From assembly GCA_013823855.1 (NCBI GenBank), contig PNMW01000082.1:124001-188000 (forward strand): a stretch of 64,000 bases of DNA. The letters run 5' to 3'. The stretch comes from Lysobacteraceae bacterium. Lineage in GTDB: Bacteria > Pseudomonadota > Gammaproteobacteria > Nevskiales > Nevskiaceae. Shown here piece by piece: positions 59,235-64,000 of this stretch (position 1 is its first letter; each line of letters begins with the position of its first letter). The position numbers and the translations under genes were made by a program. The notes beneath the pieces are model-generated. The model was given only the letters and a program-made list of their open reading frames with translations, did no database searches and was not told where the DNA came from.

Positions 59235-60053
59235 ATGAGCGCTAATAATCTTGTTTTCATTGTCATGGACAGCTGCCGTTACGACAGCTATCAGCGGGCC
59301 AAGCGGCCGAACATGGACCGTATCGGGGAGGGCTCGAAGCGGTATTCGTTTGCCTCCTGGACCAGCCCGTCGCATTACACCTACCTGATGGGGATGATTC
59401 CGCATACCAGTCCGCAAGGCGTTTTCGCGTCGGAGGTCTACAAGAAGGACTTCTCGCTCTGGGTCGACCGGCTGGGCGTCAAGGATCTGTCGTTCAAGAG
59501 TTTCGTGCCGCAGCTGTCGCTGCCGCATGTGCTGCAGCAGAACGGTTATCGCACATCGGCCAAGGTGTCCCTGCCGGTGCTGAACCCGTTCTCGCATTTG
59601 AACAAGCACTTCGACGATTACAAGCTGATGGCGAATCACAACGATTTCGCCGGCATGGTCAAGCAGATCGAGTTCGACGAATCGGAGCCGCAGTTCTATT
59701 TCCTGAACCTCGGCGAGACTCACTACCCGTTCATGCTGGACCCGAAGAACATGCCGCACATCTCGGGCGTGCACGGCGTGTTCAAGCGCATGGACGACAA
59801 CCTCGGTCAGGAAACCGAGGACAAGTTCTTCGACGACGAGCAGATGCGTGACCTGCATGCCCAGCAGGTGCGCTGCGTCGAATACGTCGACGAGGTGCTC
59901 GATGCGCTGATCGCCAAGGCGCCGGTCGGCACCCACTTCGTGATCACCGCCGACCACGGCGAATGCTTCGGCGAAAGCGGTTACTTCGGCCACGGCCCGA
60001 TCGTTCACGAGAAAGTGCTGGAAGTTCCGTTCCTCGAAGGCAAGAAACGCTGA
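59235..60053 (+). CDS. Sulfatase-fold (alkaline phosphatase superfamily) hydrolase
   Basis: 272 residues. N-terminal LVFIVMDSCRYDSY carries metal-ligand Asp12. The nucleophile region reads T43-S-P-S-H, where sulfatases have C-x-P-S-R, so no formylglycine can form here and Thr43 is the likely nucleophile, as in phosphodiesterases and phosphoglycerol/phosphoethanolamine transferases. The second metal site is ITADHGECFGE (Asp240, His241), followed by His254 in YFGHG. The protein ends soon after this block and is short for the family. No signal peptide or membrane span is seen. It lies 64 nt before the synthase gene and is probably cotranscribed with it. Confidence 0.8.
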   Translation: MSANNLVFIVMDSCRYDSYQRAKRPNMDRIGEGSKRYSFASWTSPSHYTYLMGMIPHTSPQGVFASEVYKKDFSLWVDRLGVKDLSFKSFVPQLSLPHVLQQNGYRTSAKVSLPVLNPFSHLNKHFDDYKLMANHNDFAGMVKQIEFDESEPQFYFLNLGETHYPFMLDPKNMPHISGVHGVFKRMDDNLGQETEDKFFDDEQMRDLHAQQVRCVEYVDEVLDALIAKAPVGTHFVITADHGECFGESGYFGHGPIVHEKVLEVPFLEGKKR

Positions 60054-60117
60054 TCCGGTGCTGCGGCCGGCTGCTGGAAAGTCGCAAACGAGTGCAGGGT
60101 CAGATGGGAGAGCGGCA

Positions 60118-63100
60118 GTGGTTCACGAAAGCTTCGATGTAGTCGGGATTACGCCAGCGGATGCATCGCACCCGGGAACCGCAGTCGCAACGGCGCGTGC
60201 CGGTGGCGTCGGCCTGCTCGACCTGGAGTTCAGCCGCGACGATGCCCGTGCAAGCGCCGCGTTCGATCGTCTGCTGACCGCAACCGACGCCCGCATCGGT
60301 CTGCGCGTCGATCTCGGCCACGCCGCACTTGCCCGGCGGTGGCTGTCTGTCGCAGCTGATCGCCCGCTGACCCTGATCCTCACCGGTTCCTCGACCCAGC
60401 AGGCCGCGCTCGCCGCCCAGCTGGCACCTGGCGGCCAGCATCGCGTACTGGTCGAGATCATCGACGTCAGCGACCTCGGCCGCTTTCCATTCGCGCACCA
60501 CGGCGTCGTCGCCAAGGGCCACGAGGCCGGCGGCTGGGTCGGTGCCGACACCAGCTACATCCTTGCCCAGAAACTGCTTGGCAAATCTGCGCTTCCGGTG
60601 TTCATGCAAGGCGGCATCGGCGTGCACAGCGCCGCTGCGCTGCGGGCGATGGGCGCGGCCGGCGTGATCTTCGAGGACCAGCTGCTGCTGCTCGCCGAAT
60701 CGCCGCTGCCGGAAGTGCTGCAGAACGAGCTGGCTCGTCTGAATGGCGCGGAAACGCGCCTGTTCGGCGAACTGATCGATCAGCCCTGCCGGGTCTACTC
60801 GCGGCCCGGCACGGCACAGCTCAAGTCGGCGGAGGCCGACAACAATGCCGTCGAAGCCGGCGATCTCGCGGTTGCCGACTGGCGCACGCGGCTGACCGCC
60901 AAGCTCGGCTGGAATGGCGGCGAACAGTTCATGCCGATCGGCCAGGGCATCGGCCTGGCGGCGACCTATCGCAGCCAGTACCGCAGCGTCGGCCGCTTCA
61001 TCCAGGCGGTGCGCAAGGCCAGCACCCAGCACGTCAGCTCGGCGGTCGCGACCGGCTTCATGGCGCCGGGCGGCGCACTGGCAAAGTCGCACGGCACCAC
61101 CTATCCGATCGCCCAGGGTCCGATGACCCGCGTTTCGGATTCCCCCGAATTCGCCTACCAGGTGTCGAAGAACGGCGCGCTGCCGTTCCTGGCGCTGGCG
61201 CTGTACCGCGGGCCGCAGGTGCTGGAGATGCTCCAGCAGACCAAGGCGAAGATGACCCAGGCCGACGGCAGCGAACTGCCCTGGGGTGTGGGCATGCTCG
61301 GCTTCGTGCCGCACTCCCTGCGTGAAGAGCAGATTGCCGCCGTCTGGCAGTGCAAGCCGACCTACGCGCTGATCGCCGGCGGCCGTCCGGATCAGGCGGC
61401 GCTGTTCGAGAAGGAAGGCATCCCGACCTACATCCACGCGCCAGCGCCGGCGCTGCTGCGCATGTACATCGAGCAAGGCGCCAAGCGCTTCGTGTTCGAA
61501 GGCCGCGAGTGCGGCGGCCACATCGGACCGCTGGCCAGCTTCCCATTGTGGGAGCAGATGATCGAGGTGCTGCTCGCCGACGTGAAGCCGGGCACCGAGT
61601 CTGGCTACCACATCCTGTTCGCCGGCGGCATCCACAATGCCGCATCCGGCGCGATGCTGGCCGCGCTCGCAGCACCGTTGGCGGCGCGCGGCATGAAGGT
61701 CGGCTGCATCATGGGCACGGCCTACCTGTTCACCCAGGAAATCGTCGACTCGGGCGCGGTGGTCAAGGGCTTCCGCGACGCCGCGATCTCCTGCGACAAG
61801 ACCGTCAATTTCGAGACCGGCCCCGGCCACTCGACGCGCTGTGTCGATACCCCGTTCTTCCGCGAATTCCGCGAAGCGCGCAAGGAACTGCTGCGCGAAG
61901 GGGTGGGCGCGGATGAGCTGCGCGACCGCCTCGAAGACATGAACATGGGCCGCATGCGCGTGGCCTCGAAAGGCCTGAACCGCGACGCCTCCGGCCAGAT
62001 CGTCGAAGTCAGCGAAGCCGATCAGTACAAGGACGGCATGTTCATGATCGGCCAGATCGCCACGATGCGCGACGGCGTGGTCACGCTCGACGCGCTGCAT
62101 CGCGAAGTCACCGTCGGTGGCATGGCAATGCTGCAGGCGGTGGTCGGCGCCAAGGCGGCCCGCAAGCAGGAAGCGAAGCCGGCGGACATCGCCATCGTCG
62201 GCGTCGGCACCCTGCTGCCGAAGGCGACCCTGGCTGAGAAGTACTGGGAAAACATCCTCGACCAGGTCTGCGTGATCGGCGAAGTGCCGAAGGACCGCTG
62301 GGACTGGAAGATGTATTTCGATGCCGACCGGCGTGCGCGCGACAAGGTCTATTCGCGCTGGGGCGGCTTCCTCGACGAAGTGGCCTTCGATCCGATTTCC
62401 TACGGCATTCCGCCGAAGTCGATGAAATCGATCGACCCGATGCAGCTGCTGACGCTCGAGGTCGCGCGCCGCGCGCTCGCCGATGCCGGCATGGGCGATG
62501 GCGACTACGACCGCGAGAACACCAGCGTCATTCTCGGCGCCGGCGGCGGTCTCGGCGACCTCGGCACCCAGTACGCCGTCCGTGCAGAGTTGCCGCGTTT
62601 CGTCGACATCGACGACAAGACGGTCTGGGAACGCCTGCCCGAGTGGACCGAAGAATCGTTCGCCGGAACCCTGCTCAATGTCGCCGCCGGCCGGGTCAGC
62701 AACCGCATGGATTTCGGCGGCCTGAACTTCACCATCGACGCCGCCTGCGCCTCGTCGCTGGCCGCGATCTCGATCGCCGTCAACGAACTCGAAGCCGGCC
62801 GCAGCAATGTCGCCATCGCCGGCGGCATCGACACCGTGCAGAGCCCGTTCGGCTTCCTGTGCTTCTCCAAGACCCAGGCGCTGTCGCCGGACGGCAAGCC
62901 GAAGACCTTCGACCAGAACGCCAACGGCATCGCGATCAGCGAAGGCCTGGCGGTGGTCGTGCTGAAGCGGCTCGCCGACGCCGAAGCCGCCGGGGACCGC
63001 ATCTACGCAGTGATCAAGTCGGTCGCCGGCTCCAGCGACGGTCGTGCGCTGGGCCTGACGGCGCCACGTCCGGAAGGCCAGAAGCTGGCGCTGAAGCGCG

Positions 63101-64000
63101 CCTACTCGCGCGCCGGCTTCTCGTCGGCAACCCTCGGCATGGCCGAAGCGCACGGCACCGGCACTCCGGTCGGCGACAAGGCCGAAGCGCGGACGATCAC
63201 CGAATCGCTGGCCGCGGAAGGGGCCGCGCCGAAGACCGTGGCGATCAGCTCGGTGAAGACCCTGCTCGGCCACACCAAGGCCAGCGCCGGCGTCTCCGGC
63301 CTGATCAAGGTGGCGCTGTCGCTGTACCACCGGACGCTGCCGGCGCATTACGGCGTCGACAAGCCGATCGACACCATCGCTGATCCGAACGCCCCGGTAT
63401 ACCTGCTGAAGGATGCGCGGCCGTGGATCGCCCATCCGGATCACCCGCGTCGCGGTGGCGTCTCGGCGTTCGGCTTCGGCGGGACCAACTTCCACGCCGT
63501 GCTCGAGGAATACCGCGGCAGCTTCGGCGCCAGCGGCGCCTCTGGCGCACCGCGCTGGCCGCAGGAGCTGTTCGTGTTCCGCGCCAGGGATGAAGCCGCG
63601 CTGTCCGCGGATCTCGGCCGTTTCGTCGCGGCGCTGAAGGCCGGCAGCAACGTCAAGTTCCGCGATCTCGCGTACTCGCTGAGCAAGCAGGCGGAAAGCC
63701 GTGCCGGCGCAGCGGTCTGCGTCGCCCTGGTCGCCAAGGACCTCGCTGGCCTGCAGGCCGATCTCGAAGCGACGATCGCCAGCCTCGGCGGCAATGGCCG
63801 GCCGCTGCCGCCGTCGGCGCGCTACTCGAAGTCGGTGCCGGCGACCGCCCCTCGGATCGGCTTCCTGTTCCCCGGCCAGGGTTCGCAATACGCCAACATG
63901 GGCCGCGAGACCGCGCTCTATGTCGATGAGCTGCGCGCGGCGCTCGAATTCACCGACGCGACGCTGCGCAGCGCATTTCCGGCGCTGCTGTCGCGCACCA
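60118..64000 (+). CDS. Modular Pfa/PKS-like synthase with tandem N-terminal FabK/PfaD-like domains (3' end beyond window)
   Basis: 1294 residues are visible from GTG 60118 (GGGAG 7 nt upstream; an in-frame GTG at 60058 is possible). Domain order: a flavin-dependent enoyl reductase/nitronate monooxygenase-like barrel (about 1-300; KGHEAGGWVG with Trp140 where His is usual); a second such barrel (about 325-650; EGRECGGHIG with His468); a ketosynthase (about 689-1132) with Cys877 in DAACASS, His1012 in HGTGT and His1052 in GHTKAS; then the start of an acyltransferase (GFLFPGQGSQYANMG, from 1248). The ketosynthase resembles polyunsaturated fatty acid and glycolipid synthases (PfaA/HglE-like). The product is unknown. 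Confidence 0.85.
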   Translation, partial: MVHESFDVVGITPADASHPGTAVATARAGGVGLLDLEFSRDDARASAAFDRLLTATDARIGLRVDLGHAALARRWLSVAADRPLTLILTGSSTQQAALAAQLAPGGQHRVLVEIIDVSDLGRFPFAHHGVVAKGHEAGGWVGADTSYILAQKLLGKSALPVFMQGGIGVHSAAALRAMGAAGVIFEDQLLLLAESPLPEVLQNELARLNGAETRLFGELIDQPCRVYSRPGTAQLKSAEADNNAVEAGDLAVADWRTRLTAKLGWNGGEQFMPIGQGIGLAATYRSQYRSVGRFIQAVRKASTQHVSSAVATGFMAPGGALAKSHGTTYPIAQGPMTRVSDSPEFAYQVSKNGALPFLALALYRGPQVLEMLQQTKAKMTQADGSELPWGVGMLGFVPHSLREEQIAAVWQCKPTYALIAGGRPDQAALFEKEGIPTYIHAPAPALLRMYIEQGAKRFVFEGRECGGHIGPLASFPLWEQMIEVLLADVKPGTESGYHILFAGGIHNAASGAMLAALAAPLAARGMKVGCIMGTAYLFTQEIVDSGAVVKGFRDAAISCDKTVNFETGPGHSTRCVDTPFFREFREARKELLREGVGADELRDRLEDMNMGRMRVASKGLNRDASGQIVEVSEADQYKDGMFMIGQIATMRDGVVTLDALHREVTVGGMAMLQAVVGAKAARKQEAKPADIAIVGVGTLLPKATLAEKYWENILDQVCVIGEVPKDRWDWKMYFDADRRARDKVYSRWGGFLDEVAFDPISYGIPPKSMKSIDPMQLLTLEVARRALADAGMGDGDYDRENTSVILGAGGGLGDLGTQYAVRAELPRFVDIDDKTVWERLPEWTEESFAGTLLNVAAGRVSNRMDFGGLNFTIDAACASSLAAISIAVNELEAGRSNVAIAGGIDTVQSPFGFLCFSKTQALSPDGKPKTFDQNANGIAISEGLAVVVLKRLADAEAAGDRIYAVIKSVAGSSDGRALGLTAPRPEGQKLALKRAYSRAGFSSATLGMAEAHGTGTPVGDKAEARTITESLAAEGAAPKTVAISSVKTLLGHTKASAGVSGLIKVALSLYHRTLPAHYGVDKPIDTIADPNAPVYLLKDARPWIAHPDHPRRGGVSAFGFGGTNFHAVLEEYRGSFGASGASGAPRWPQELFVFRARDEAALSADLGRFVAALKAGSNVKFRDLAYSLSKQAESRAGAAVCVALVAKDLAGLQADLEATIASLGGNGRPLPPSARYSKSVPATAPRIGFLFPGQGSQYANMGRETALYVDELRAALEFTDATLRSAFPALLSRT

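Follow-up and report, generated by a model that had tools for sequence, protein, structure and literature searches.

Several described lipid synthases come close to the product of gene A, a megasynthase gene at the end of the window analysed here (the whole stretch of 64,000 nucleotides, C2:124001-188000 of the contig of a Lysobacteraceae bacterium of the family Nevskiaceae), in which two tandem barrels stand ahead of ketosynthase (KS) and acyltransferase (AT) domains. In the PfaA-PfaC-PfaD systems of polyunsaturated fatty acid (PUFA) synthesis the reductase, PfaD, is a separate protein, and fusions of pfaD with pfaA were described for Ottowia, Aquimarina and Flavobacterium and likened to Renibacterium (PMC13291983). 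The Type P list of PMC3098273 includes Beijerinckia indica together with Azotobacter vinelandii, with long alkyl chains, e.g. behenic acid, as the product, and the products of ArsA are C23-C25 fatty acids (PMC4824345). Two enoyl-reductase (ER) barrels of one thraustochytrid synthase, ERb and ERc, pair as a heterodimer (PDB 9SDD, PMC13311796); FabK forms homodimers according to the interface table of the same paper, which gives a histidine as the proposed catalytic residue of both FabK and PfaD. These statements follow the available parts of the papers cited.

Gene A comprises 3152 codons if counted from the GTG at 60118, or 3172 from an upstream GTG, and ends with a stop at C2:193576. An open reading frame (ORF) scan found no stop from 60058 through the window end, and over its full length, including the contig beyond the window, the gene contains neither an internal stop nor a frameshift. 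The GTG at 60118 is preceded by GGGAGAG, and the codon at the start position is GTG in six and ATG in five of the 11 loci compared, the own one included. Profile scans and motifs gave the domain order barrel 1, barrel 2, KS, AT, five acyl carrier proteins (ACPs), ketoreductase (KR) and a dehydratase (DH) of polyketide synthase (PKS) type; the best curated model was PfaA (TIGR02813, 1468 bits at a cut-off of 1010). The KS, AT and KR motifs are kept in all 21 aligned proteins, and the DH motif in 13 of the 14 proteins from loci with the same gene neighbourhood as the window (the window type). As far as sequence can establish it, the gene is intact, with this domain order and with recognisable KS, AT, KR, DH and ACP active-site motifs. 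An earlier note on this DNA, which had described two barrels at the front of a KS-AT megasynthase and intact KS active-site residues, is confirmed in both respects, and the extension downstream of the window that it called for revealed the ACPs, KR and DH, and no degradation. On the minus strand (60100-64000) a frame of 1299 codons lies open opposite gene A, likely as a by-product of high-GC codon usage.

The two barrels were cut out separately, and each was searched alone against curated models. Both matched the FabK model TIGR03151 (E 3.6e-7 for barrel 1 and E 3.6e-16 for barrel 2), far under its cut-off (barrel 2 reached 59 bits of the 453 needed). The nitronate monooxygenase (NMO) model PF03060, with a cut-off of 28 bits, was exceeded by barrel 2 (42.5 bits), while barrel 1 stayed under it (19.8 bits), and the PfaD model TIGR02814 was not listed at E 0.01 for either barrel searched alone. 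A profile of 39 relatives matched solved FabK chains over positions 15-299, corresponding to barrel 1, with E 4.9e-24. Judged by the curated models, both barrels are of the flavin mononucleotide (FMN) enoyl-reductase/NMO type, FabK/NMO-like rather than PfaD-like. Thus, a FabK-like fold for the first residues, in place of an unrelated one, is supported by sequence matches; the term "flavin-reductase-like" used in the earlier note does not fit, and of the three families that it named for profile searches FabK and NMO were matched and PfaD was not.

The main result concerns barrel 1, which appears from the alignments to be a conserved pseudo-reductase whose catalytic residue is gone in every relative examined. 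When barrel 1 was aligned directly with FabK, its tryptophan stood opposite the catalytic His. The first sample of relatives comprised 68 loci (L010-L077), read in plus-strand frames only, which gave 61 rows and none from L014, L020, L021, L022, L025, L026 and L028; after removal of L059, L071 and L073 (partial) and merging of identical rows, 47 distinct proteins remained. The His of the GGH loop is present in barrel 2 of all 47, and the catalytic His of barrel 1 in none of them, its place being taken by W (42 proteins), R (two), F, Y or Q (one each). Since the scan of named contigs had KGHEAGGW among its patterns, which favours W in barrel 1, a separate sample found by profile search was checked. 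This search matched ten of 398 genomes drawn from the phylum, and in the nine remaining after exclusion of the own genome the barrel 1 His was again absent throughout (W in three, F and R in two each, E and A in one each), with the barrel 2 His present in all nine. No protein of this second sample exceeds about 51% identity with a protein of the first, and the samples do not overlap. The earlier note had missed this loss; with barrel 1 lacking the catalytic His, the barrels are probably not both working reductases.

The two barrels also differ in how strongly they are conserved. Among the 47 proteins the mean pairwise identity is 40.0% for barrel 1 and 59.9% for barrel 2, barrel 2 being the more similar in 1080 of 1081 pairs. 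At the 95% level, 19 of 274 positions are conserved in barrel 1 against 103 of 361 in barrel 2; by these alignments barrel 1 is the faster-evolving domain. When five PfaD proteins were included in a barrel tree, built without the divergent pairs L065 and L076, the barrel 1 rows form one group (support 100/99) and the barrel 2 rows another (99/96), with 18 rows each, suggesting that the two-barrel arrangement probably predates the split of these lineages.

Barrel 1 and barrel 2 may be regarded as a candidate built-in pseudo-dimer, in which the His-less barrel 1 most likely stands in, within one chain, for the partner subunit of a FabK-type dimer; FMN binding and the geometry of the pair are likewise putative. 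Barrel 1 is most plausibly the lasting half of a dimer, and the thraustochytrid heterodimer demonstrates that copies on different chains can pair. ERb and ERc are, however, two proteins, 89% alike (PMC3098273) and both with the catalytic His, whereas here both barrels are on one chain and one of them is His-less. Barrel 2 shares the catalytic His of FabK and differs from FabK in being fused to a synthase and in scoring far below the FabK cut-off. Barrel 1 may also help to hold the ACP. Alternatively, barrel 1 might be a second reductase or a domain handling FMN or NADPH, with another residue substituting for His, as its prevailing W and its retained loop Glu and GG motif could suggest. The variety of the replacing residues (W, R, F, Y, Q and, in the second sample, also E and A) and the low overall conservation of barrel 1 make this unlikely.

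The second synthase gene, gene B, follows gene A beyond the window. The only signs of its phosphopantetheinyl transferase (PPTase)-like end are a motif and the match to an ArsD-like protein of Beijerinckia, to which the C-terminal half of gene B is 31% identical, though in gene B this part is fused behind KS-AT. The KEA of the PPTase motif WxxKEA is kept in 12 of 14 aligned relatives of gene B, while the motif reads LAAAKRAA in the own genome and in G016, and likewise in G014. The FabA-like dehydratase/isomerase domain PF07977 was not found in gene A or gene B at E 0.001; as a control, the PfaC-like second protein of a KS-first locus (G200) has two FabA-like domains and two KS domains.

Taken with gene B, gene A is with fair probability part of an iterative type I fatty acid/polyketide synthase, belonging to an ArsA-like branch that adjoins PfaA. 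The AT would load malonyl onto the five tandem ACPs, and the KS would perform the condensation; the KR would then reduce the product, and the PKS-type DH domains at the end of gene A and in gene B would dehydrate it. Barrel 2 is expected to reduce the enoyl-ACP with FMN, and His488 is proposed to act as the acid, in analogy to FabK. By its annotation, this domain set is sufficient for the full reduction of each added two-carbon unit. The acyl product, probably a long and mostly saturated chain, would be handed to a free ACP and an alpha/beta-hydrolase encoded nearby and be modified by conserved neighbours, hydrolases of the alkaline phosphatase (AP) superfamily and a hexapeptide transferase. 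We infer the pseudo-dimer, the chain type, the hand-off and the head group from this arrangement; the product is most likely an acyl lipid with a long, mostly saturated chain that the conserved neighbours modify. A special lipid, which the earlier note had considered possible, is probable. A wider proposal, put forward tentatively as a possibility, is that a whole branch of synthases has an asymmetric single-chain ER pseudo-dimer in which the dead barrel serves in shaping, docking or gating its twin, and that Nevskiaceae produce an undescribed lipid decorated by the products of neighbouring genes.

The two-barrel layout is no peculiarity of one genome. The two-barrel region matched at E 1e-20 in 56 of 100 genomes, the own one included and a few partial only, and in the same search no match was found in the same-genus genomes G011 and G012. 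Named contigs contributed 44 loci, mainly from Nevskia, Hydrocarboniphaga, Panacagrimonas, Sinimarinibacterium and their kin, together with Acidobacteria, Methylocystis, Methylobacter, Azoarcus, Anaerolineales, Solirubrobacteraceae and a Bizionia; the fusion also occurs in Streptomyces and in five plasmid records, Beijerinckia indica among them. In total, six phyla are represented: Pseudomonadota, Acidobacteriota, Actinomycetota, Bacteroidota, Candidatus Binatota and Chloroflexi, the last by contig title. The earlier note had named as support that tandem barrels recur in related genomes and that the genes downstream are conserved; both were found. In Hydrocarboniphaga effusa (NZ_AKGD01000001.1) the two-barrel gene occurs twice (L045 and L058), the copies scoring equally and lying about 200 kb from each other.

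Among 274 genomes drawn from the class, 12 matched the PfaA model at E 1e-200; four of the loci are of the two-barrel kind (own, G060, G219 and one of two in G097) and eight others that were read are KS-first, as assigned by the place of the KS in the frame. A quick KS tree of 90 rows unites the 39 tandem-barrel rows in a single group (SH-aLRT 98), and in a careful tree of 58 rows, for which L053 gave no KS, this group is supported at 100/100 against 13 KS-first rows. The tandem rows were mostly found via the barrels and the KS-first rows via the KS or the PfaA model, so that frequencies cannot be read from these trees. The KS phylogeny proposed in the earlier note places the tandem-barrel group beside the KS-first PfaA-type proteins with a separate reductase. 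A stand-alone PfaD over the cut-off was present in all five KS-first genomes checked (eight are in the tree), while in the own genome, 88% complete, no PfaD-family protein over the cut-off was found, the best TIGR02814 score being 19.6 bits at a cut-off of 449. Most likely, then, the reductase activity of the synthase comes from the fused barrels. By tree position and distribution, the tandem-barrel layout is that of a branch of bacterial lipid synthases which is already known but has been little studied.

One alternative is a Pfa-type PUFA synthase in which PfaD has moved ahead of PfaA. Gene A does resemble PfaA in its best curated model, in the order KS-AT-tandem ACP-KR and in its neighbouring KS group. 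Its reductase, however, is fused and of FabK/NMO type, with TIGR02814 listed for neither barrel and no PfaD over the cut-off in the genome, and genes A and B lack the FabA-like dehydratase/isomerase of which the KS-first partner protein examined has two. Because of these two absences PUFA synthesis is quite improbable, and a plain PUFA synthase was set aside. The fused pfaDA and pfaBC-PPTase clusters of PMC13291983, compared by their description, are similar in having a reductase ahead of PfaA and a partner with a PPTase; those of Aquimarina and Flavobacterium differ in accompanying PKS-nonribosomal peptide synthetase (NRPS) genes, and the available description mentions neither two barrels nor a lost His. 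Given these fusions and the two-barrel layout of Beijerinckia indica, the suggestion in the earlier note that such a fusion falls outside known PUFA synthases is not supported.

An alkylresorcinol or phenolic-lipid synthase like ArsA-ArsD, for which a type III PKS encoded at another site would make the head group, appears about as improbable. The likeness to Type P was judged on the Beijerinckia plasmid protein, which also has two barrels before KS-AT-ACP-KR; its partner is of the DH-PPTase type, which the C-terminal part of gene B resembles. The window-type partner nevertheless adds KS-AT, there are five ACPs, the KS falls in another subclade, and the Beijerinckia type III PKS, used as a query, had no match in any of the 14 window-type loci. 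Since no type III PKS was found in these loci or in the own genome, 88% complete, a phenolic-lipid synthase was also set aside. It might finally be supposed that the locus is decaying and that its genes are on the way out, the PPTase motif of gene B being gone in the own genome, G016 and G014. Both giant genes are nevertheless open, their identity to the G016 counterparts is 86-87% (94-95% for two neighbours), and the other domain motifs are intact, which makes decay very improbable.

Several observations weigh against the proposed synthase with its pseudo-dimer. Barrel 1 keeps the loop Glu in all 47 proteins and the GG motif in 46, and with these residues it may still bind FMN or use other chemistry. 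The usual DH motif has G at a position where gene A of the own genome has N. With the degenerate PPTase motif of gene B and a single PF01648 PPTase found in the own genome, in a 139-aa, AcpS-sized frame, the activation of the ACPs is left unexplained. Against all 19 other rows, the tandem-barrel KS group is supported at 90/98, a level at which the program regards a grouping as neither demonstrated nor rejected. The own genome (88% complete) has no type III PKS, so by this evidence a phenolic lipid of the ArsB/C type is not the product, and two members of the Ars subclade, L146 and L150, have no type III PKS match within the 20 kb examined. To our knowledge, no chemical product is known for the subclade of gene A.

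No report of the His loss in barrel 1 or of this cluster was found in the open-licence literature, in which a search for a pseudo-enzyme barrel led only to the thraustochytrid paper (PMC13311796, available in part) and one on Nevskiaceae genera to no paper. The His loss is new here, while fused pfaDA and Type P synthases, judging from the available text of the papers cited above, are already in print. If the proposal holds, the tandem-barrel fusion would mark a lipid synthase lineage in six phyla, with one barrel kept as a pseudo-enzyme over phylum-wide divergence; barrel 1 could help to decide which cycles end in full reduction of the chain, and the protein would provide a clean test case for the role of a dead domain inside a megasynthase. 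Nevskia relatives would then share an unknown lipid pathway, in which two AP-superfamily enzymes, hexapeptide transferases and perhaps a sulfotransferase would decorate the product. Some of these relatives, in Hydrocarboniphaga, Panacagrimonas and Sinimarinibacterium, are named strains with culture-collection numbers.

Table 1. Position of the synthase genes, their domains and selected neighbours (window positions unless prefixed by C2, L008 or L009).
Feature	Coordinates	Strand	Remarks
Gene A, barrel1-barrel2-KS-AT-ACPx5-KR-DH megasynthase	60118..64000 in window	+	first 1294 of 3152 codons; continues to C2:193576
Barrel 1, FabK/NMO-like	60136..60957 (approximate edges)	+	W160 (numbered from 60058) at the catalytic-His position
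Barrel 1 active-site loop	60511..60543	+	AKGHEAGGWVG
Barrel 2, FabK-like FMN enoyl reductase	61045..62127 (approximate edges)	+	QGPM motif; His488 (numbered from 60058)
Barrel 2 active-site loop	61495..61527	+	FEGRECGGHIG
KS domain	62173..63522	+	C877/H1012/H1052 intact (numbered from 60118)
AT domain, start	63862..64000	+	cut by the window end
Gene B, 1638 aa	L008:11612-16528		beyond the window, after gene A; KS, AT, PKS-type DH by Pfam
AP-superfamily hydrolase	59235..60053	+	ends just before gene A; Sulfatase PF00884 over cut-off, STM4013-like below cut-off
Sulfotransferase-like protein, 510-aa protein without Pfam match, long membrane protein	L009:2888-5312 and onward	-	convergent

The neighbourhood of gene A was compared in 14 window-type loci, the own one included, which are a selection from the matches in the 100 genomes. 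The upstream AP-superfamily hydrolase, a phosphodiesterase-like protein and a hexapeptide transferase occur in 12 of the 14; all three genes are absent in G059 and G064, which belong to other families of the order. A free ACP, assigned by eye from the motif ESID, and an alpha/beta-hydrolase are each found in 13, and the convergent trio in 12, its membrane protein being HlyD-like by eye. In the best aligned piece, the two AP-superfamily hydrolases are 67-95% identical between genomes, compared with 52-86% for gene A. These two proteins, the second at L008:16610-18208, flank the synthase genes, and in both the nucleophile position resembles Thr/Ser, not the Cys of sulfatases (by eye).

Three locus contexts can be distinguished: the window type, loci with a type III PKS nearby, and loci with glycosyltransferase-like and ABC-transporter-like genes. 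A type III PKS lies near the gene in nine loci, Beijerinckia included, and in six of the eight tree rows of the Ars subclade. The glycosyltransferase-type context was found in seven loci, the ORFs of four of which were inspected by eye, and the Streptomyces annotation includes a glycosyltransferase. Of the window-type neighbours, only the alpha/beta-hydrolase (27-43%) and, in a single weak match, the membrane protein have counterparts in these seven loci, which associates the modifying genes with the window type. Several genomes of the own family carry a second tandem-barrel synthase (L099-L112) together with glycosyltransferase-like, ACP-like, condensation-like and ABC-transporter genes, as judged by eye, a context with which an exported glycolipid would fit.

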